The position numbers and the translations under genes were made by a program. 25,870 nt of DNA from a virus. Shown here in pieces: positions 1 to 12,441 of this stretch; positions within the stretch are counted from its first letter, which is position 1, and every line of letters starts with the position of its first letter. The notes below the pieces were generated by a model. That model was given only the letters and a program-made list of their open reading frames with translations. It was not told the DNA's origin and made no database searches. The DNA lies in the IMG/VR virus record IMGVR_UViG_3300013093_002126, positions 1 to 25,870 of that record; one strand, 5' to 3'.

Positions 1-200
1 AATTCTTCTCTGGTCAATGTTTGAGTAATAGTGCCATTGATGATTCCATCAGCGTGTTCTTTCAATGTCATCCCATTGCTTTGATGTACAACTCCAATGG
101 TTATTGAAAATTTTTCTGCGATATCTAGGTTAACTGATGATATTATAATGTCAGCTGGCGGAGCACTATTTGGTATTTTAATTGTAGAGTTTAAATCCAT
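1..200 (-). CDS. Pro-kumamolisin-like N-terminus (partial, runs off left edge)
   Basis: ATG at 200 opens a frame that continues off the window, giving 66 codons. The protein resembles the start of the sedolisin encoded at 8920-11502. Both share a GMTLKE motif, then A-D-x-I-x-N-G, then T-L-(T/S)-x-E-E, in the same order and spacing. In the S53 activation domain (Pro-kuma_activ family) the L-T-x-E-E-F stretch is a conserved feature. The start lies one base after the stop of the collagen-like gene, within the overlap TAATATG, so translation is probably coupled. There is no signal peptide. Whether a catalytic peptidase domain follows cannot be seen. It could instead be a stand-alone prodomain used as a structural module. 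The homology call is my own alignment. Confidence 0.6.
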   Translation of the reverse strand, partial: MDLNSTIKIPNSAPPADIIISSVNLDIAEKFSITIGVVHQSNGMTLKEHADGIINGTITQTLTREE

Positions 201-201
201 A

Positions 202-2193
202 TTATACTTCCAATTGTACCAATGTTAATGTAATTGTAATGTTGGTTGTAAATGCGCTGTTATTGGTTACAGCTAGATATATAGTACCACCGGGTGTAGT
301 ATCGTCGTTGTAGCCTATTACTGCTGGACTTAAAATTTGAGTGCTGGATCCTGTTGCTACTATATCAGCAATAACTCCGGTTCCTGGAATAGGATCAATA
401 CTTTGTACTCGAGACGCATCTGCTGTTCTAGTAGATGCTGAAGTATATAATCTTATCCAAGATGCTGCAGTAGTAGCTATTTTTAACAATGCGTAACTGT
501 TAAATCCTGTGATGCTGATATTGGCCGTAGTTCCTGGAGCAATGCTACCAGATGATCCACTTACTGTTGTTCTGGAACTCAGTCCAGTACCAGATCCTCC
601 AGTACCTGCAGGCCCGCTTGGTCCAGAAGGTCCTTGATTACCTTGTGGTCCTGTTGGTCCTATACCTTGCGGTCCTTGGTTTCCTTGCGGTCCTTGGTTT
701 CCTTGTGGTCCGGTTGCTCCGGAATTTCCCGAAGTTCCCTGTGGGCCAGATACGCCTTGATTACCTTGTGGACCTTGGTTACCTTGTGGACCGCTGGGTC
801 CTTGTGGTCCTACGATAGGTCCAACATCATTCCAGGCGGAACCTGTCCACACCCAAAGATGTCCAGTAGTGGTGACAATTTCTCCATCACCTATAGATCC
901 TGTATAAGGATTAGGCAAAGAAGAAGATGACGATACGCTGCCTACAATTCGTACTGATGTACCGGCTGGGCCTTGATTTCCTTGTGGTCCTTGATTACCT
1001 TGTGGTCCTAACCCTTGTGGACCGCTAGGACCTTGTGGACCGCTAGGACCAGTATTTCCTTGTGGACCTGCGGTTCCGCCTTGTGGCACTAAATTCGCAT
1101 AAAATTTAGAAGCAGATCCGCTGGATATATATTGATCACTGGGACTGCTGGTATAGGCAGTTACATTGACATAGTCAGTGGATCCATTTAGATATACCAC
1201 CACACTGCCGCTCTGTGACTGATTTGTAATTGCGTTGACCTGTGATTGTAAGATTAATTCGGTAGATCCGTTCTTATGTATCTGTAGATTTAATTGATCA
1301 GTTCCGCTGCCAACCTGCCAGTCTACAGCAACTTCGATATTATAATAACCGCCTATTGTAGGCTGAAATTGATGAGAACTGTTATTCCACCAACTACTAG
1401 GGTCTACTATTGAATTAAATTGTAGTACACGATCACCGCCGTGTATAATTTGTTGATCTGCGGATAATCCAGCACTGACCACATACGAACTGGTACTCAA
1501 TCCTAGATATGTAGGACCAGTAGGACCCGGTGTTCCTGGCGTTCCTTGCGGACCGCTGGGTCCTTGAGGGCCTGTGTTTCCTTGTGGCCCGCCAATTACC
1601 CCTACATCAGTAAACCCTGCTCCGTATGGCCCTGACCCTGTGTACACCAGCAGGTGCTGTGCCAATGGGCCTGCTGTGATAAGATATCCATCACCGAGGT
1701 TGTTGTTTGAACTTGGTAGGTTAGTTACATCAGGTACACTGCCTTTGATTTGAACTGAAGATCCTGGTTTACCTTGTGGTCCCGATGGTCCTTGTGGGCC
1801 TACACTTCCTGTAAATCCACGCAGTCCTTGGTCACCTTGTGGACCTACGGTGCCTGGATTACCCTGAGGACCGCTTATTCCTTGAGGGCCTTGTGCTCCA
1901 CTGGGACCCAATGGACCGCTTGGTCCCTGTGGTCCACCTGCTGGTCCTGGAGTACCTTGTGGTCCTGTTGGTCCTGTTGGACCGCCTGCGGGACCTACTG
2001 GTCCAGGATTTCCTTGCGGGCCTGCTGGACCTGCTGCCAATGCGGTTAGCTGTTCTACTGATATTCTTCTAGTAACCGTGGCATTATGATTCGTTGCGTT
2101 ATCGTCAACTGGTAAAAACACACGGTTTGGTTCGGCTTCTATATGGCTGTAAACTGTATCGTCTACAACAGGTAAATTAATAATTTTAGTCAT
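202..2193 (-). CDS. Collagen-like fibre protein with C1q-like domain
   Basis: A 663-residue protein with four Gly-X-Y blocks (about residues 55-145, 202-228, 373-412 and 462-532), rich in GPQGxxGP triplets. These should form collagen-like triple helices, as in many phage tail fibres. The N-terminus (1-54) is non-collagenous and may be the virion attachment part. Residues 148-200 and 414-460 are two copies of a small module (pattern: G-S-V, then L-P, then G-D-G, then W/Y-x-G-S, then D-V-G) that precede collagen blocks. Residues 229-368 look like a C1q/TNF-type jelly roll (GGYYNIEV and a beta-rich tail ending in YANLVPQ). The C-terminal 130 residues are a beta-rich cap. Small breaks in the Gly periodicity (PAGGP, GLGP, GIGP) occur. 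The gene starts 3 bases after the preceding stop, so it is in one operon with the 2234-residue gene. Likely a host-recognition or decoration fibre, by inference. Confidence 0.85.
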
Positions 2194-2196
2194 TGT

Positions 2197-5100
2197 TTAA
2201 TCTCTTATCAGTGGATCTGGGTCGGGTGCTCCTGGAACTCCTTGGGTATCTAGCGTAGGTCCTGTGGATTCATAGATAACACTATCAGAATCTATTTGTT
2301 CAAATAAGTTATTTCTACCAAATACCAAATATTTAGCAGTACCTTGATCAAGGGCATTTTCGATAATTATTCGATCTACATCAAAATCAAATTGTTTAAA
2401 ATCAAAACCGGTAGCTTGTATCTTGTCTACAATCTTTGTAGATTGTCCAGGCAGCGTATAACATATTGGAATAACACGCATGTATCCGGGTAATTGATAA
2501 CTGCCAGCCTGAGTTGTTTCCATATATACAGGCGTGTTGTAAGAATCTACGGCTATATTTGTATAATCACCAGATCCATTGGGTACTGTTATACTTTCTA
2601 ATGCTTCACGCATATTGGTCATACTGTTTGGATAATATACTTGTCCGTTGATATATATAACTAGTTCAGAACTTACTCCGGCATTGTTTATTAATCTATC
2701 TTTGGCATCAACATACACAACTTCATAGATAATGTTTCCTACACTATCACGGGCAACGGCAGTCTTTAAATCTCCAAAATATATGCGTTTTCTATAAAAG
2801 TTTTCACGCAACGCAACAACATAGTCTGCTATATTGAGTCTTTGTATTCCAAATTCCAAGTACATTCTAATGTCATGTTGAACTCCAAAATTTGGATCAT
2901 ATGGACGATATAACAACGATTGTGGGAATATAGTATTATCCGAAATAAAGTTATAATATACTTCTCGACGATCTTTTGGTAAAAACGGTCTTAGATAAAT
3001 CTTTGTAAATTCTTTTTCGACAATTGTAAGTGTAAAATCTCTTTGATTAGGAGCACTGTTATATACATCCACAGCTTCTATTGTAACGGTATAAGTACCT
3101 TCTGTTCCATAATCAGCCTGTCCCACAATAGAGCCATCTGGTATCAAAGTAAGTCCACTTGGTAAACTACCACTAACCAGTTGATATTTAATATTGCTTG
3201 ATGCTATGGTTGATGTAGACTGTAATTGAATAGAACTAACTTGTCCAGTAGCCAATGTTGCTAATGTTGAGGATGTTATCCAAGTAATATTATCGTAGAT
3301 ATTACCTTCTATAATCAAATTAAATGATACTTGGCTTGATGTTGTACCTATTGTTGCTGTTTTAGTAGCTTGAATAGTTAATGGGTATGTTCTAGTATAC
3401 ACCGGCTGATAATCAACCAGCCCAGACACATATCCTTTTGTTCCATCAAATGATAATTCTGGAGGCAACGATCCTGATGTTAGCGCATATGTTACAGATC
3501 CTGTTCCTGGATACGGATCATATCCTGATAAATCTACAATGTCTCTAGTTAATGTCCTAACATATATATCTTGCTTGTAGATAAATTGAATTGGAGGAAC
3601 GTAATTTATATGGAGACTCAATAGTATATAAGGATCAGTGACTGTCAACACAACATCTTGGCTAATCTGATAGGTACCGTTTGTGGCTACCAATGTTACA
3701 GGATAGTTTTTGGCATCCCCGTTAAGGGTGTCATTGACATACCCAGAAATTAATCCATCTGTGGATAAAGTCAATCCTGGGGGGAGTGTACTTGTTGTAT
3801 AGTATTTTACTGTAGCATACGGATCAGAAATTGCCAGCAGTTGATAATTTACATATTGATGATTTAATAACCAAGGTTCGCCACTGGGTCCGATTGATAA
3901 AAATACTGATGGTATTAATTCAACATCTGGAGATACACTGGCAAGCGACCACGACAATGGTCTGGTTGGGCCAGGAATACTTATGGTAAAATAATTATCA
4001 GCTGATCCTTGTATATTTTTTGCTCTAACAACAAATGTGTCCAATGTTGAAGTTGTTACAGGAGTTGGTGTTCCGGTTATAAATCCATTTGATGAGAATG
4101 TTAATCCTCCTGGGAATTTACCTCCCATTAAACTATATGTTACTCCGGCTCCTCCTGCTATTACAACGGTGCTGGTATAAACACCAACTGTGGCAGTAAA
4201 TAAAAACCCTGTAGGAGTTAACCATATTGGTTTTGATTTTGTTACATATGCTGGTGATCTTTCTACCGTTAAAGTATAAGTTTTTTGTGTGGTACCATTT
4301 TGTGCTGTCACTACAATTATAATTGTATTAATACCTGTACTTAAACTAATAGAATTAGATGAAGATCCAGAAGAAATTGGAAATCCATTAACAGTTAATT
4401 TGGCATGACTATCGCTGGTAACCGGAGTGATTGTAATTGAACTCACAGTATTATCAACAACATTTGTATATCCAACTATGCTACTATTAAATATTGGATT
4501 TAATGTTCCGCTAGATATCAATAGATTAGATAATAAAGCATTATTTGATAATACCAAAGGCAATCTTGTTACAATAACTGTATAGGTAATAGTAGTAGTA
4601 CCATCTTGTGCTTTTACAAAAACAGTGATTGTATTTGATCCCACCGTTAATGAAATTGGTCCAGATAAAGTTCCAGAATTAACAAAGGTTCCATTAACTA
4701 GTACTGTAGCATGACTTTCGTTAATAACAGGTAATACTGTTATAATACCAGTATTGTAAGAAACTGATTCAGTATAGTGTGTGGTTGCACTATTAAATGT
4801 TGGATTTAATGATCCTCCTGTTACCAACAATGACCTTAATGTAGCATCGCTAGAAGCACTAGGAGCGGCTCTGTTGACTATTATCTTATATATTTTAATT
4901 GTGGTATTGTCTTGTGCCGTTACTGATACAGTGATCGTATTAGAGCCAACAGATAGATTAATAACTTCAGAAGCTGTTCCTGAATTAACACCAACACCGT
5001 TTACTATTATTCGAGCATTAACCTGGTTGTGAGTAGGCGTTACTGTTACTGAACTAACAGAATTAGCCACTGATACTGTATAAGATGTTGTTTGAGAATT

Positions 5101-8100
5101 AAATGATAATGATCCGTTTGATATTGTTAGGCTAGATAGAGACGCATCTGATGATGGCAACGGTTGGGATCTTGTTACATTGATGGTATATGTTTTAATT
5201 GTTATACCATCTTGAGCTGTTACTACAATGGTGATTTTATTTTGCCCAACATTGAGATTTATTAGTGACGATGCTGTGCCTGAACGAACAACAACTCCAT
5301 TGATGGTTAATTGAGCATGACTTTCGTTGGTGGTAGCAGTAACTGTGACAGAGCCAACGGAGTTGTCCACTGTATCTGCATAAAGAACCATACTTCCATT
5401 AAATGTCGGAGTTAGTGTTCCGTTTGATATAGTCAAGTTAGATAGTGTGGCATCTGTTGATAATAGTGCGGCTCGAGTCACTGTTACTTGATAAATGGTT
5501 GAGTTAACATTATTTTGTGATGTCACTACAATATTAACAACATTGGTGCCGACATTTAAATTAATAGGGCTTGACGCAGTTCCTGATGTTACAGATGTTC
5601 CATTGATTTTTATAGTAGCATTGTTGTTGTTTGATATAGCAGTGAATGTTATTGAAGATGTAGAATTTGGTACACTATCAGTATATGTTAAGATAGTAGG
5701 ACCAAATGAAGGAAGTAGTGCTCCGGCAGATGCGCCTAAATATGACAACGATGAATCAGTAGAAATTGACTGTGCCCTTGTAACTATTATTGTGTAGCTT
5801 TTATTGGTTAATCCGTCTTGTGCTGTGACAACAATGGTAATGGTATTAGGACCGGTATTTAAATTAATTGAGTTAGATGGCGATCCTGAAGTCACGCCGT
5901 TTCCGTTGACCGTTATTGTGGCATTAGACTGATCAGCGGTAGGAGTAACAGTTACAGATGTAACACCATCTGCTACTGACACCATATAAGATACAGTCTG
6001 AGGACTAAATGTCAAAGAACCATTCGATATTGTTAGATTTGACAGCAATGCATCAGTTGATAATAGTTGACTGCTCCTGACCACATTAACAGTGTATGTT
6101 TTGGTAGTGACTCCGTCTTGTGCTGTCACAACTATTGTGACAATATTACTGCCTACATTTAAATTAATCGAGCTAGATGGTGATCCAGAAGCAACAGTTG
6201 TTCCATTTATAGTAACCGTAGCATTGGCTTGCTCGGTAGTAGGAGTCAATGATATTGTGGTGATGTTGTTTGATAATTGAATATTATAATAAGTGGTCTG
6301 TGAATTAAATGATATTGATCCACTAGACGCTGTTAGGTTAGATAGCAACGCATCATTTGATAAAATCTGTGCGGCTCGACTGACATTGATTGTATAATTC
6401 TTTGATGATATTATAGATGCCGGCGCTCTAACTACATTTATTGTGTAGGTCTGAGTAGTAACACCGTCTTGTGCTGTAACAACAATCGTAACTGAATTAT
6501 TGCCAACATTTAAACCAATAGCAGTAGACGGAGATCCTGATGTAACCAATGTTCCATTTACTGTTACTGTGGCACCAGCATTATTAACCGTTGGTGTAAC
6601 ACTGATTGAACTCACACTATTGTCAACTGAATCAGTGTATGAAGTTAAATTACTGCTGAATCCACCACCACCGCTGGATGCGGTTAATGTTCCAGCTGAT
6701 ACAGTCAAATTGCTCAACGATGCATCTGAATTGACAAACGGGTATTGAGATATATATGAAGTTAAATCAACAGGTACAAATAAGTATGTCTCAATTCCTC
6801 TCATTGACTCGTATGCAAATCCAACTCTGGTAAAAATATTAGATGAGTTAAATGTTTGATATTGTCGAGTTAGATATTGATCCACATATGTTTGTGGCAT
6901 TGACACTTGTCTAATGCCTTGAGTAATCAACCCAACAGGTATATTATATGGTTTTAATCTATCAATCCATCCCTGTGTCCATGATATCAATCCGTTTATT
7001 GTATTTGTAATATTGGTTTGATTAAGTGTGGTGTCGCCGTTGTTGTAATAGGCTAGACTGACAGTATACAAATAAGGATCCAGTACTACCCAGTCTGCTC
7101 GTATAGCATCAGCTAGAATGACCAAAGTAGGTACAGGGGTAATACCATTGTATCCCTGTTCAGCTGCCGGGGATATCACTACCCCTGGACTTATATTTGA
7201 TGACCTTGCAAGATCGCACAATGCCTGTAAATTTTGTCCTGATGGTTGGCCTGGACCTGTGTGTATCTCATCAGCCACTGAAAGATGTTTTGGTGACGAA
7301 TCTGGTTCTAAATTTGTACTGTCTGAGTAATAAGCATTGAAAATACTAGGACCTATACCATACCAATATTGAATGTGCCAGTGGTTTCTAGGATATCTTA
7401 CAGCTCTAAATATGCTGTCCTGTCCTGATGTGAGAGCTTGAAATTTAGATGGTATGGACACCGAGCTGGCAATGGTAATTTGATAATTTTGTCTTACCAC
7501 TGCGCCATCAGCATCTGTGACTCTTACAGAAAATGTGTATATCCCGGCCTGTGCAGGAATACCAGACAATATTCCCGTTGATGAATCTATATTGGTTCCA
7601 CCAGGTATATTACCATATACTACCCAGTAATTGTAAGGAGCGTTTCCTCCGCCAGCGGTAAACTGCTGACTATAAAATGTTCCTTGTGTTCCTGCCGGTA
7701 GTTTGTTTGAAACATCATTATCTAATGCTGGAGATCCAGGACTTAGTGTTAGATTTCCAAATACATTATTTGCTATCTCTACTGTAGTTTGATACTCACT
7801 AGAGGATATTGTCCAGTGAGTAAACCAAGATGTAAATCCATTGACGCTGGCAGGCCCTCCGACCGCTCCAGGATATGTTCCGTTGTTATAAACCCAAAAT
7901 CCATCAGGTAACAGGTACATATCACCTAATGTATTTCCTGTACTTGGTAATTGGCTGGTTGATGTAAGTGTACCTTTGTTGGTAACTGGGTTAGATCCGT
8001 CCCAGTCTCCCAAAGGAGCACCTTCGCGAAGATGTATGAAAGCTGTATTATTGGGATTCCAGGTTTTAAATGCCGCAACAATAGGATATGTGTTGTAAAT

Positions 8101-8901
8101 TGGAACCAATGTATCATTCTCATTAAGAATAAAGAAAAATTTACAAGGACTAGCATTTACAGCATCAAACCAAGGACCTTTGGGCAATCCGGGGACAGCT
8201 CCATCTGCAGCTCCGTATTGATACAGCGGACTGGCCAATTGTAGATCGGACTCTAAACCAGTATGAACATATTGATCTATGATTATAGATCTTATAAACG
8301 GATCTATGTAATTATGAGTAGTATCAAAATAATTTAAATTTGGTGGGCCACTGTTGTTGATAGCGGCTTTTGGCCAATGGCCAGACATTGTTCCGTAGTA
8401 GCACACACAATACAAAGTCAAATGCCCACCTGCACTGCTTCCGCATACTGTTAATCCTTTGTTTGCGGAAATGTAACTGTTGACATCTGCCCAGGATATA
8501 CCTGATACTCCTGTAGGATAAGCATTGGCAGCCGCAGTGGCATCTAAACAATAACTCAATACCGTGGTAACATCTAAAACATCTCCAGGTAAATTTCCTG
8601 GAGATTCTATTCCACCACCGTTGCCCAGTGTTCTATCTCTATAGTTGACATCAACCACAGCATATCCTGCTGTGGCCATTTCTGCCACATCTACTGTACT
8701 AGGGCCAGTGGAAGAAGGATAATACAAATTTGAATAGGTTCCTGCCACGGCTCCTGCGCCATCAGCGGATGCCCAACCTCCACCGTGTATGTGTAGTATT
8801 ACTCCCTTGGGTGTTATTCCTGTAGTTGGAAAATAAACATTTGCAAACTGTATAGGATCGCTTCCGTACTTGACATTTAATATATAGTTGTATGTTGACA
8901 T
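2197..8901 (-). CDS. Giant multidomain virion protein: esterase-like head, cadherin-like array, Ig domains
   Basis: A 2234-residue protein. Residues 1-380 resemble an alpha/beta hydrolase of the BD-FAE/HSL-type esterases: oxyanion motif HGGGW at 39-43, nucleophile elbow G-S-S-A-G with Ser156, and a likely acid at Asp263. The catalytic His is unclear (290 or 362). Residues about 303-350 are an inserted module also found in the collagen-like protein. Next comes a putative Ig (He_PIG-type) domain near 395-475, then an unassigned region (480-722) that could be an alpha/beta barrel. Eight cadherin-like beta-sandwich repeats follow (about 724-1550, roughly 100 residues each), then four He_PIG-like domains (about 1551-1965) and a C-terminal domain of about 270 residues. 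I recall that last domain from aquatic T4-like phage structural proteins. No signal peptide. The start is 19 bases after the sedolisin stop. Likely a tail or baseplate-associated surface protein acting on host-surface polymers, by inference. Confidence 0.8.
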   Translation of the reverse strand: MSTYNYILNVKYGSDPIQFANVYFPTTGITPKGVILHIHGGGWASADGAGAVAGTYSNLYYPSSTGPSTVDVAEMATAGYAVVDVNYRDRTLGNGGGIESPGNLPGDVLDVTTVLSYCLDATAAANAYPTGVSGISWADVNSYISANKGLTVCGSSAGGHLTLYCVCYYGTMSGHWPKAAINNSGPPNLNYFDTTHNYIDPFIRSIIIDQYVHTGLESDLQLASPLYQYGAADGAVPGLPKGPWFDAVNASPCKFFFILNENDTLVPIYNTYPIVAAFKTWNPNNTAFIHLREGAPLGDWDGSNPVTNKGTLTSTSQLPSTGNTLGDMYLLPDGFWVYNNGTYPGAVGGPASVNGFTSWFTHWTISSSEYQTTVEIANNVFGNLTLSPGSPALDNDVSNKLPAGTQGTFYSQQFTAGGGNAPYNYWVVYGNIPGGTNIDSSTGILSGIPAQAGIYTFSVRVTDADGAVVRQNYQITIASSVSIPSKFQALTSGQDSIFRAVRYPRNHWHIQYWYGIGPSIFNAYYSDSTNLEPDSSPKHLSVADEIHTGPGQPSGQNLQALCDLARSSNISPGVVISPAAEQGYNGITPVPTLVILADAIRADWVVLDPYLYTVSLAYYNNGDTTLNQTNITNTINGLISWTQGWIDRLKPYNIPVGLITQGIRQVSMPQTYVDQYLTRQYQTFNSSNIFTRVGFAYESMRGIETYLFVPVDLTSYISQYPFVNSDASLSNLTVSAGTLTASSGGGGFSSNLTSYTDSVDNSVSSISVTPTVNNAGATVTVNGTLVTSGSPSTAIGLNVGNNSVTIVVTAQDGVTTQTYTINVVRAPASIISSKNYTINVSRAAQILSNDALLSNLTASSGSISFNSQTTYYNIQLSNNITTISLTPTTEQANATVTINGTTVASGSPSSSINLNVGSNIVTIVVTAQDGVTTKTYTVNVVRSSQLLSTDALLSNLTISNGSLTFSPQTVSYMVSVADGVTSVTVTPTADQSNATITVNGNGVTSGSPSNSINLNTGPNTITIVVTAQDGLTNKSYTIIVTRAQSISTDSSLSYLGASAGALLPSFGPTILTYTDSVPNSTSSITFTAISNNNNATIKINGTSVTSGTASSPINLNVGTNVVNIVVTSQNNVNSTIYQVTVTRAALLSTDATLSNLTISNGTLTPTFNGSMVLYADTVDNSVGSVTVTATTNESHAQLTINGVVVRSGTASSLINLNVGQNKITIVVTAQDGITIKTYTINVTRSQPLPSSDASLSSLTISNGSLSFNSQTTSYTVSVANSVSSVTVTPTHNQVNARIIVNGVGVNSGTASEVINLSVGSNTITVSVTAQDNTTIKIYKIIVNRAAPSASSDATLRSLLVTGGSLNPTFNSATTHYTESVSYNTGIITVLPVINESHATVLVNGTFVNSGTLSGPISLTVGSNTITVFVKAQDGTTTITYTVIVTRLPLVLSNNALLSNLLISSGTLNPIFNSSIVGYTNVVDNTVSSITITPVTSDSHAKLTVNGFPISSGSSSNSISLSTGINTIIIVVTAQNGTTQKTYTLTVERSPAYVTKSKPIWLTPTGFLFTATVGVYTSTVVIAGGAGVTYSLMGGKFPGGLTFSSNGFITGTPTPVTTSTLDTFVVRAKNIQGSADNYFTISIPGPTRPLSWSLASVSPDVELIPSVFLSIGPSGEPWLLNHQYVNYQLLAISDPYATVKYYTTSTLPPGLTLSTDGLISGYVNDTLNGDAKNYPVTLVATNGTYQISQDVVLTVTDPYILLSLHINYVPPIQFIYKQDIYVRTLTRDIVDLSGYDPYPGTGSVTYALTSGSLPPELSFDGTKGYVSGLVDYQPVYTRTYPLTIQATKTATIGTTSSQVSFNLIIEGNIYDNITWITSSTLATLATGQVSSIQLQSTSTIASSNIKYQLVSGSLPSGLTLIPDGSIVGQADYGTEGTYTVTIEAVDVYNSAPNQRDFTLTIVEKEFTKIYLRPFLPKDRREVYYNFISDNTIFPQSLLYRPYDPNFGVQHDIRMYLEFGIQRLNIADYVVALRENFYRKRIYFGDLKTAVARDSVGNIIYEVVYVDAKDRLINNAGVSSELVIYINGQVYYPNSMTNMREALESITVPNGSGDYTNIAVDSYNTPVYMETTQAGSYQLPGYMRVIPICYTLPGQSTKIVDKIQATGFDFKQFDFDVDRIIIENALDQGTAKYLVFGRNNLFEQIDSDSVIYESTGPTLDTQGVPGAPDPDPLIRD
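4255..6730 (-). repeat. Eight cadherin-like repeat units, about 300 bp period
   Basis: Within the 2234-residue gene, eight units begin near 6725, 6355, 6055, 5760, 5460, 5150, 4850 and 4550. Each encodes the pattern (S/T)-x-(D/N)-A-x-L-S-N-L, then ISNG(T/S)L, then V-x-(V/I)-x-P, then a V-N-G turn, then N-x-G-x-N-x-(I/V)-x-(I/V)-x-V-T-A-Q-(D/N), and ends in Y-x-(I/V)-x-V-x-R. This matches the cadherin-like beta-sandwich family (PF12733-type) of bacterial surface proteins. The longer first interval holds an extra copy of only the last strand. Units are diverged but related at DNA level, giving leucine- and valine-rich spurious antisense frames. Confidence 0.8.
4913..4951. repeat. 39-bp segment near-identical to 8924-8962
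   Basis: Direct comparison of plus-strand bases 4913-4951 with 8924-8962 gives 37 matches in 39. Both mismatches fall at synonymous third positions (ACG/ACA and ACT/ACC codons on the minus strand). The segment encodes the VGSNTITVSVTA strand of cadherin-like repeat 6 here, and the end of the truncated cadherin-like domain of the sedolisin there. The similarity is much closer than between other repeat units, which points to a recent duplication or gene conversion. Confidence 0.75.
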
Positions 8902-8919
8902 GTAATTTCTCTATATTTG

Positions 8920-11502
8920 TTAATGTGCTGTTACTGATACGGTGATCGTATTAGAGCCAACATTCAACCCAATATTTCCTGAATGGGATCCTGACACTAC
9001 TGGAATATTATTAACTGTAATTGTGGTATTGGGATTATTGGTTGTGGGAGTAACTGTAACGAAACTTGTGCCATAATCCACACTGTCAGTGTAACTGGTT
9101 GTGTTGGCAGCAAATGACGGAGTCAGTGTGCCATTGGATATGGTCAAATTACTAAGTAAAGCACCAGTTGCTGGAGAAAATAAATTGACCAATGATACAC
9201 CATTGGGACTTCCTAGCCCCGTTGCTGCATCCCAGCCTGTGGTTGCGCTGTATCCCTGTGTGGCTGGAGCTCCTGGCGCAAGCACACTGTTGATTATATC
9301 TGGTGGTAATACATAGACATTAATTATATCATCAATGTTTACCGTCAATTGACCATTTGAATTTACATTTTCAAGAGTTATTCCAAACTGCCATAAACCG
9401 TATTGATCTGCGGTCACTGTGGTGCTCAAATTATATGGGTCTGAATTAGCTGTTTGCCCGTCGATGATTTTAATAACATTGCCATCGGGCCCTGCCCTAT
9501 AGAAATAAACGGCATCGCCTAATGAATTAAAAATTGTATCAGATATGGTAATCACAGACCCTATAGGGACCACTGGAGTATTTGGTGGGTACCATGTGAT
9601 GGTGTTGTTTGAAGTAAGTGTTATCCCTGTACTACATTTTTCAGTGGTTATGTTAGCAGGATTGGCCCTAAAAATCATTAGTTTGTTTGGTTCTAACGCC
9701 GCACCGGCAATAGGATAGAATGAGGCATATATTTCACCTGTTCCTAGAATATTTAAGTTCACAGATGCTGTTAATGGCCATGTCGATCCTTGAACAGATG
9801 CTGAATTAACGTATGGCCCTGGTGCTATATTTTGTAGCACTTCTAAAAAACCACCAAGAGAACCAGGAACATTATAAACAGTGGCTGACGCTGTAACGGT
9901 GGTGCCTTGTATTACTGTGGGAGGATTTATAGAATTTCCCAATGATGTTGACAAATCAACCTTTGTAGGAGCAATGGCATTATTTCCAGAAATTACATCG
10001 TAGAATGAGCCAAGATTGTTGTACAGTTTATTATGTACAAAACCTATGTTAGATCCAGTTAGAGCATTGATCCTGGCAATTAATCCTGCCCATAAAGGCG
10101 ATACCGCACTGGTTCCGCCAAACTGTACACGCTGACCATTTACATAAAATATATATCCACTACCTGGATCTGCGTTTCCTGAAATATCTGGTATACCTCT
10201 TCCTATAAAATTGATAGCATCAAATGCTCCACTGGTCAAGGTCACAGGAGATTGATTGCCATTATTATATTCGGTATATTGAATGCCGTTTTGATAAACT
10301 GGTACAGCATATTTTCTGCTTATGCCTCCGCCTGATCCAGAAAATGGTGACACTCCGACTATTGCTGGGTTATTCCATACCGTTTCATTAGAAATATTGC
10401 CAGAACCGTCTATTTGTAAAGATGTGCCTCCGCAACTCAATACCAAAGGATGACTAGAAGGAAAATTTACCGATAAAGGAATCCATCCCTGTGGATAATT
10501 GTTACCAAAAATAGATAGGTTGGCAGCCCCGGTATCACCACTGCTAACGCATACTGTGATTCCTTTGACCACAGCTTGATTTAATACTGTATCATAAGCT
10601 GCAAGATCTTGAGCAGTTACAAACCATTCAGGACCGGCCCAGCTTATGCTTACCACACTTGGTCGGTTTATTGAATCGTTTATTGCGGCACTTATAGCAT
10701 CAATAAAACCTTGAGTGGTGTTTATACTAAAATATATCGCCAAAGTGGCACTGGGAGCAACGGCTCCTGCTACAAATATATCCAACATCACTTCATTAGA
10801 AGCTCCGTTTACTATGGTATTTGTAGGAGGATCTGCCCAAAAACTATTGGTACCACCATCTACTGATACATCAATAATGGTTGGTGCCGATAATCCTACA
10901 GCATTAAAACTTGTCTGTACATCTGATGTTAGGTAGCCTCCGCCTAATTCAATAATACCTATACATTGCCCTGCTCCAGTGCTGGCAGGAAAATTATAGG
11001 CAGTTGCTACTTGTAGAGGTGTTAGTGGCACCTTTCCGCCGGGAGATGATTCAGGAGATGCAACAGCAAGATGTGGTTTATACCAGGCAGTTTCGTTGAG
11101 CCCAACAACATGCTCTACTATAGAATCTATCTCCGTAGGTATTATTAAATTGCCTGAATATGTTGTATAGGTCCTGTTATTTTTATCAGTATCAGAATGT
11201 AAAACTATTCTAAACAGTGTGTTGAATTGTTCTACTGTCCCGGATAATTTTACCAGGGCTGCACCTGTATTTGACTCTACAACTGTTAAATTGTTGGTTT
11301 GAGCAAATGCCAATACTGCGTTGATATCAGCTGATACTGTGCCAAATTGGTATGTAAATTCCTCATGGCTTAATGTATCACTAATCTCACCATTGACAAT
11401 GGCATCGGCATACTCTTTGAGAGTCATGCCGTTATCGTGAGTATCTCTTCGGAGATATAAACTAACTGTTAATTGATCTGTAAGGGGTTTTGCGGGTTTC
11501 AT
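8920..11502 (-). CDS. Sedolisin-family (S53) peptidase with truncated cadherin-like tail
   Basis: An 860-residue protein. Residues 1-140 are a pro-kumamolisin activation domain, followed by a linker and the peptidase domain from about 158. The S53 catalytic set is complete: Glu237 and Asp241 in E-V-M-L-D, oxyanion Asp323 in SSGDTG, and nucleophile Ser465 in GGTSAVSP. Both calcium-site motifs exist, YDVISGNN (Asp502) and GWDAATGLG (Asp758). They are about 256 residues apart, whereas in kumamolisin the matching residues (316 and 338) are 22 apart, so a beta-rich insert of roughly 240 residues splits the site. Residues 780-860 are a cadherin-like beta-sandwich cut off before its last strand. No signal peptide. 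Next in the operon is the esterase/cadherin protein. Family members are acid-active, self-activating endopeptidases. Here it may sit in the virion and process itself, its neighbour or a host-surface protein, by inference. Confidence 0.85.
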   Translation of the reverse strand: MKPAKPLTDQLTVSLYLRRDTHDNGMTLKEYADAIVNGEISDTLSHEEFTYQFGTVSADINAVLAFAQTNNLTVVESNTGAALVKLSGTVEQFNTLFRIVLHSDTDKNNRTYTTYSGNLIIPTEIDSIVEHVVGLNETAWYKPHLAVASPESSPGGKVPLTPLQVATAYNFPASTGAGQCIGIIELGGGYLTSDVQTSFNAVGLSAPTIIDVSVDGGTNSFWADPPTNTIVNGASNEVMLDIFVAGAVAPSATLAIYFSINTTQGFIDAISAAINDSINRPSVVSISWAGPEWFVTAQDLAAYDTVLNQAVVKGITVCVSSGDTGAANLSIFGNNYPQGWIPLSVNFPSSHPLVLSCGGTSLQIDGSGNISNETVWNNPAIVGVSPFSGSGGGISRKYAVPVYQNGIQYTEYNNGNQSPVTLTSGAFDAINFIGRGIPDISGNADPGSGYIFYVNGQRVQFGGTSAVSPLWAGLIARINALTGSNIGFVHNKLYNNLGSFYDVISGNNAIAPTKVDLSTSLGNSINPPTVIQGTTVTASATVYNVPGSLGGFLEVLQNIAPGPYVNSASVQGSTWPLTASVNLNILGTGEIYASFYPIAGAALEPNKLMIFRANPANITTEKCSTGITLTSNNTITWYPPNTPVVPIGSVITISDTIFNSLGDAVYFYRAGPDGNVIKIIDGQTANSDPYNLSTTVTADQYGLWQFGITLENVNSNGQLTVNIDDIINVYVLPPDIINSVLAPGAPATQGYSATTGWDAATGLGSPNGVSLVNLFSPATGALLSNLTISNGTLTPSFAANTTSYTDSVDYGTSFVTVTPTTNNPNTTITVNNIPVVSGSHSGNIGLNVGSNTITVSVTAH

Positions 11503-11829: not shown

Positions 11830-12402
11830 TTATGTTTTAGTCATATTTAATCTGTCGTTAATAACTTTCCAGTTAATTATGCGCCAGACATTTTTCAAGT
11901 ATCGAGCCTTGTCAGCTTGATAATCAAGGCTCCAACTATGCTCCCACCAATCTATTAGTAATACAATATCATTTTTAATTGCGTGATTTGTAATGGTTTT
12001 TATCTGACCGTTGCGAGCCAAATACACCCAACCTGATCCTTGTATCCCCATAGCAACAGTTTCAACTTTTTCTTTTAAATCATCTAAATTGTTGTAGTGT
12101 TGTTCAATAAATTCCAGGCTAGCACCAAATGGACGATTTGAACCACTAGGCGGCATTAGTTGTGGAAAAAAGATGTTGTGTAAAAACGCACCTGCTTTGT
12201 TAAAGTCGGGATCACCTTCATCTTTATTATAACGATCTACATAGCCTTTAGCAAGTTTACCGTAATGGTAATCTATGCTAGCTTTACTCAAAACGGGTGC
12301 TAGGTCGTCACGGCCATAGGGTAAATACTCAAGTGTTAATTTATCTTTGTTTGATTCAGCTAGTATAATCAACTGTCGAATCTCTGGTAATGTTTTTTGC
12401 AT
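11830..12402 (-). CDS. Fe/Mn superoxide dismutase
   Basis: A 190-residue protein, close to the usual length for the Fe/Mn family, which converts superoxide to oxygen and hydrogen peroxide. The four metal ligands are present: His46 (in D-Y-H-Y-G-K), His75 (in A-F-L-H-N), Asp151 and His155 (in LLIDWWEHSW). The second-shell tyrosine (Tyr54) and the G-S-G-W motif (122-125) are also there. The position of the outer-sphere Gln of MnSOD (Gln146 in E. coli) appears to be His140, as in some mycobacterial-type iron enzymes. The second His of the usual HHxKHH is Tyr47. I chose the ATG at 12402 over an upstream GTG at 12432 because the likely promoter lies between them. No Shine-Dalgarno is visible. Probably an auxiliary gene protecting infected cells; it could also be a structural relic of the fold. 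Confidence 0.85.
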   Translation of the reverse strand: MQKTLPEIRQLIILAESNKDKLTLEYLPYGRDDLAPVLSKASIDYHYGKLAKGYVDRYNKDEGDPDFNKAGAFLHNIFFPQLMPPSGSNRPFGASLEFIEQHYNNLDDLKEKVETVAMGIQGSGWVYLARNGQIKTITNHAIKNDIVLLIDWWEHSWSLDYQADKARYLKNVWRIINWKVINDRLNMTKT

Positions 12403-12412
12403 ACAGATATTT

Positions 12413-12441
12413 ATTATGGTTAAATAAAACACTTATGTAAA
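12413..12441 (-). promoter_or_regulatory. Sigma70-like promoter of the superoxide dismutase gene
   Basis: The minus strand reads TTTACA (12441-12436), a 17-bp spacer, and CATAAT (12418-12413), five of six matches at each box. Initiation 6-7 bases further would fall near 12406, only about four bases before the ATG at 12402, so the mRNA would be almost leaderless. That fits the lack of a Shine-Dalgarno sequence. Confidence 0.55.

Follow-up and report, generated by a model that had tools for sequence, protein, structure and literature searches.

Immunoglobulin-like sandwiches that lack their last strand, with a matching strand carried on another polypeptide, are known from chaperone-usher pilins and from the SpyTag/SpyCatcher system. 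Sedolisins, the cadherin-like β-sandwiches of Pfam family PF12733 and donor-strand pairing are each known separately; the literature searched, which covers the field in part, describes neither a sedolisin from a phage nor a dock on a virion formed by strand donation, nor a C-terminal tail shared by S8 and S53 proteases.

Two phage systems come closest to the locus described here. In the cultured cyanomyoviruses S-RSM4, S-H9-1 and ACG-2014h a tail-fibre gene is followed by a gene for a serine protease, in all three of family S8. In the jumbo phages Atu_ph07 (gp329) and Phosso an S8 peptidase is joined with He_PIG domains and a C-terminal anchor region, and the gene for gp329 lies at the end of a virion-protein cluster identified by mass spectrometry (PMC6102473). 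The protease is covalently fused in these two phages, whereas in the window (the whole 25,870-nucleotide stretch of viral record IMGVR_UViG_3300013093_002126 that was analysed) a separate S53 protein, sedolisin-A, is encoded beside a giant protein that bears the anchor.

Serine proteases downstream of fibC fibres

The window has the same cassette of fibre and protease genes as the cyanomyoviruses.

1 to 200, minus strand: start of sedolisin-B, cut by the contig end; usual slot, one base past the fibre gene (sedolisin HMM, E 9e-7)
202 to 2193, minus strand: collagen-like tail-fibre protein ending in a 'fibC' domain at 202-576 (Pfam and PHROGs)

The fibC domain is present in 48 phage records, mostly cyanomyoviruses, and a profile search recovered 80 viral loci, which after removal of identical proteins gave 71 distinct proteins downstream of fibC fibres. 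A serine protease occupies this position in 64 of the 71 (27 S53 sedolisins and 37 S8 subtilisin-like enzymes; the remaining 7 are other proteins), most often at a spacing of one base from the fibre gene. The pattern was seen in loci L003-L014 (with S53 proteases), L089-L095 and L148-L225 and at positions 1-2193 of the window. In phage S-SCSM1, whose virion has been examined by mass spectrometry (PMC9602691), the fibC fibre and the next protein are annotated as virion proteins.

The slot proteases of the unrelated S53 and S8 families have a C-terminal tail in common, roughly FPKxNYGFRPxSGxxYPR; the pattern (F/Y/W)PK...(R)P.SG..(F/Y/W)PR often occurs as two units. Most slot proteases end in this way, examples being FPKQNYGFRPASGSAYPRRSTGAR (S53) and FPKVNNFLRPSSGLLFPRTS (S8), and an HMM built from the S53 tails alone retrieved S8 tails from 3196 ORFs at E values down to 1e-10, with few other ORFs. 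As S53 and S8 are different peptidase families, the shared tail is best read as a putative mounting tag, which probably ties the usual slot proteases to the fibre or to another tail part. A slot S8 protease at L238:5374-7377 is without the tail, and such proteases can carry another C-terminal domain instead; that of S-H9-1 gp171 has its match in PHROG 677, a baseplate wedge tail fibre connector. That tail fibres are followed by interchangeable S53 and S8 proteases with a common tail is a pattern that seems to be undescribed in the literature searched.

Sedolisin-B lies directly downstream of the fibC fibre and is 68% identical to sedolisin-A over 25 residues (blastp, E 7.7e-10). Because the usual slot is already taken by sedolisin-B, sedolisin-A is an extra paralogue located elsewhere. 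Unlike the slot proteases, it is encoded upstream of the giant gene and lacks the shared tail that every one of the 26 slot sedolisins of full length carries.

An additional S53 peptidase beside a giant virion-type protein

8920 to 11502, minus strand: sedolisin-A, kumamolisin-like peptidase of family S53, 860 residues (PF09286 and 1t1e)
11092 to 11478, minus strand: pro-kumamolisin activation domain, residues 9-137 (Pfam PF09286, E 1e-13)
9256 to 9969, minus strand: insert of ∼238 residues in the catalytic domain, residues ∼512-749, flanked by the GNN loop and the GWD-TGLGSP segment

Sedolisin-A matches kumamolisin (1t1e) with an E value of 2.9e-84 (phmmer), the alignment covering residues 10-511 and 750-778; it is lost at 511 and picked up at 750, which sets the bounds of the insert. 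The enzyme shares with kumamolisin and kumamolisin-As the PF09286 pro-domain, the catalytic Glu-Asp-Ser set (Glu237, Asp241 and Ser465, the last in GGTSA) and the oxyanion residue Asp323 (SSGD), all four residues being invariant in the alignment of all phage relatives. On the basis of its pro-domain and catalytic residues, sedolisin-A is a predicted S53 peptidase; it differs from kumamolisin in being phage-encoded, in its catalytic insert and in a truncated PF12733 domain at its C terminus. The sedolisin of L095 has an insert at the matching position, which the other aligned relatives are without. The viral-contig sedolisins are 36-39% identical to sedolisin-A in the best tblastn segment. Upstream of sedolisin-A lies an Fe/Mn superoxide dismutase-like gene with a GTG start (11830-12432).

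2197 to 8901, minus strand: giant virion-type protein, 2234 residues, with an esterase-like N terminus, eight PF12733 repeats, He_PIG domains and a C-terminal anchor (Pfam)
6427 to 6717, minus strand: PF12733 repeat R1
6373 to 6408, minus strand: orphan last (G) strand in the R1-R2 linker, residues 832-843 (strand-profile scan, 25.0)
6076 to 6345, minus strand: PF12733 repeat R2
4258 to 6045, minus strand: PF12733 repeats R3-R8 (R6 at 4870-5139)
2197 to 3024, minus strand: C-terminal anchor region, common to the Phosso and Atu_ph07 S8-protease proteins and ∼60 viral contigs

Virion proteins of these phages typically bear a C-terminal domain like that of the giant; homologues of this domain occur in L007, L008, L089-L147 and the two jumbo phages, where this region is fused to the S8 protease. 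A 2270-residue relative of the giant (L093:3875-10687) has nine complete PF12733 repeats and the same anchor, with YHYH domains where the giant has its esterase; neither a sedolisin match nor an orphan strand is present in it. The region of the giant that precedes R1 (6727-7464, about 246 residues) yielded no relative in the viral contigs, and a scan with the esterase region returned no match.

The C-terminal domain of sedolisin-A lacks its last strand

8923 to 9156, minus strand: truncated PF12733 domain (cadherin-like β-sandwich), residues 783-860, ending short of the last (G) strand (Pfam match 1-74 of 89)
8902 to 8919, minus strand: intergenic stretch of 18 bases with an AGAG ribosome-site-like sequence, in frame but with a TAG codon

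The sequence-only reading of this DNA had noted that the last strand of the sedolisin domain is missing, and the profile comparison bears this out. The domain scores 47 bits against a curated PF12733 cut-off of 24.2, but it is matched only up to position 74 of the 89-position profile, short of a complete seven-strand sandwich. The predicted model of the intact repeat R6 (pLDDT 94) contains seven strands, of which residues 85-94 (of 100) form the last; according to this model, the strand absent from sedolisin-A corresponds to that last one, which we take to be the G strand of the Ig-like fold. The model of whole sedolisin-A is poor (mean pLDDT 46), with values of 57-89 for the C-terminal domain.

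The truncation appears to be exceptional among PF12733 domains, judged from the sequences compared. All of the ∼150 matches listed, from 18 bacterial genomes, extend to profile positions 85-89 free of stops, while the row for the window itself requires read-through of two stops. C-terminal PF12733 domains in complete ORFs of bacterial loci are full length in eight cases out of eight (one frame-shifted assembly left out); truncated domains in Massilia L031 were excluded as the ORFs are fragmented. Nor is the truncated end common to related sedolisins, since those of the viral contigs have no PF12733 domain at all.

A surplus strand in the neighbouring protein

Scanning the giant with a last-strand profile gives nine matches for its eight repeats, leaving one surplus. 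This orphan, SSKNYTINVSRA, lies outside any complete repeat. Its score of 25.0 is inside the range of genuine strands, and all other unassigned matches in 79 proteins with 418 repeats reach at most 17.5; none as strong came up in the 78 other PF12733 proteins. Over the last ten residues the orphan is 57% similar to true G strands, which are 54% similar to one another. The two partial units have complementary extents: the sedolisin domain covers profile positions 1-74, the orphan about 75-89.

Joining the orphan to the sedolisin domain raised the profile score by 13.3 bits, compared with 1.6 for the N terminus of the giant and 1.4 when the stop is read through. The gain from one of the giant's He_PIG strands lies within 1 bit of that from the orphan, so the fusion test is supportive but not specific on its own. 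The giant's N terminus, STYNYILNVKYG, was considered as a donor and rejected: apart from that small gain, it has a profile score of 3.8 against 18-27 for real strands.

An earlier suggestion, that a strand from another protein might complete the sandwich, is thus unexpectedly strengthened by a candidate donor, although one placed differently from that of the pilus. In donor-strand complementation of the pilus type the acceptor lacks the G strand, as does the sedolisin-A domain, and the partner donates a strand from its N-terminal extension; here the candidate is an internal linker strand, at residues 832-843 of the giant. What the window would share with pilins and SpyTag/SpyCatcher is an incomplete sandwich for which a second polypeptide offers the fitting strand; the case for the predicted binding draws on neither a chaperone nor an isopeptide bond. 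No second phage with a truncated domain paired with an orphan strand was found.

A 39-base patch shared with repeat 6

8924 to 8962, minus strand: 39-base patch near-identical to R6 of the giant (37/39, P 0.0013)
4913 to 4951, minus strand: partner of the patch, inside R6 of the giant gene

The near-identity of the sedolisin end to repeat 6, also pointed out from the sequence, is beyond what the encoded proteins and their codon usage would ordinarily produce. The two segments agree at 37 of 39 bases, both mismatches (ACC/ACT and ACA/ACG) being synonymous, and the runner-up window agrees at 33 of 39 when each of the nine units (R1-R8 plus that of the sedolisin) is paired with every other, 36 pairs in total. 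When the proteins were kept fixed and synonymous codons redrawn at the genes' own usage (1500 trials), at least 37 of 39 arose anywhere among the 36 pairs in 0.13% of trials (P about 0.001), and in no trial among the sedolisin pairs. Over the whole domain, DNA identity of the sedolisin unit is 60% to R6, 58% to R1 and 56% to R3 and R5. Since R6 is barely closer than R1, R3 or R5 domain-wide, the near-identity is confined to one short patch. It looks, in sequence, like a short gene-conversion or recombination tract.

Exchange with the repeat array of the giant, part of the earlier proposal, is supported by the patch and by the identity of the sedolisin unit being highest to R1, although the tree of repeats is poorly resolved. 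The other part, that the match stops exactly at the truncation and so marks a junction, carries no independent weight. The end of the match coincides with the stop codon because the PF12733 domain itself ends there, and no domain remains to be aligned past the stop.

Possible docking by strand donation and its alternatives

We tentatively favour the reading, whose likelihood falls a little short of an even chance, that a domain split across two adjacent genes docks sedolisin-A on the giant virion protein by strand donation. It is possible, with slightly less assurance, that the split Ig-like domain forms a non-covalent dock in which the protease supplies six strands and the giant the seventh, so that the enzyme is mounted on the particle. 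The T4-like phages of this group encode a serine protease beside their tail-fibre genes, with sedolisin-A as an additional copy; in this reading the copy gained a repeat unit without its G strand through recombination with the neighbour's PF12733 array. The spare G strand of the R1-R2 linker would fill the open groove of the incomplete domain, fixing one protease per giant protein, and the docked protease may digest a host surface protein.

The main rival to docking, ranked below it yet a real possibility, is recombination debris: unequal exchange within the array would have produced both the broken unit of the sedolisin and the stray last strand of its neighbour, the truncated domain being a tolerated, non-binding tail. 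The repeats do recombine, as the 37/39 patch at the truncated end illustrates, and the linker between R1 and R2 resembles a vestige of a deleted repeat, because a normal linker follows the orphan. A recent relic could also match the orphan's score, as it would take about 20% neutral change to erase the strand score of a relic. However, the orphan has retained its core although its DNA has diverged from that of the other G strands in the window by 40-58%, the sedolisin domain is intact up to the stop, and debris would have to account for two rare features in adjacent genes that cover complementary parts of one domain.

It is unlikely that the truncated domain pairs with itself as a swapped dimer, or binds a carbohydrate or other ligand as a free adhesin, the orphan then being irrelevant. 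Carbohydrate-active enzymes often carry PF12733 or similar sandwiches, and the nearest solved folds are glycosidase domains such as those of AgaBb (8yk1, Z 13.0) and glucodextranase (1ug9, Z 8.2), but free bacterial PF12733 domains retain the last strand and the surplus strand next door would be left unexplained.

The proposal that a stop codon divided a single ancestral gene, encoding both the sedolisin and the giant, has very little to recommend it. Both genes are in one frame, 18 bases apart, but two stops intervene, the intergenic bases are unlike a last strand (no remnant was found in the 18 bases past the sedolisin stop, P 0.57), and the giant opens with its own esterase-like domain behind the AGAG sequence. 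In every relative sedolisins are separate genes, normally downstream of the fibre gene. The related genomes had been suggested as a place to look for an intact fused gene or an intact domain, and neither came to light: sedolisin scans of viral contigs returned only sedolisins without the domain, and those of phages and genome contigs gave no match. An assembly error at the repeated 39 bases is just as improbable, for although the contig is metagenome-derived and repeats can create false joins, the longest exact run common to the two copies is 21 bases, both genes are intact, and in gene spacing and AGAG site the locus resembles other genes in the window.

Implications

Taken together, the order of fibre and protease genes and the tail shared by S53 and S8 enzymes suggest that tail-borne proteases may be widespread among aquatic T4-like phages, with mounting as a separate, exchangeable module. 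Should the two halves described here bind, sedolisin-A and its neighbour would form a dock on the phage particle built from one naturally divided domain; it would parallel strand donation in pili and SpyTag, and it can be read from sequence.
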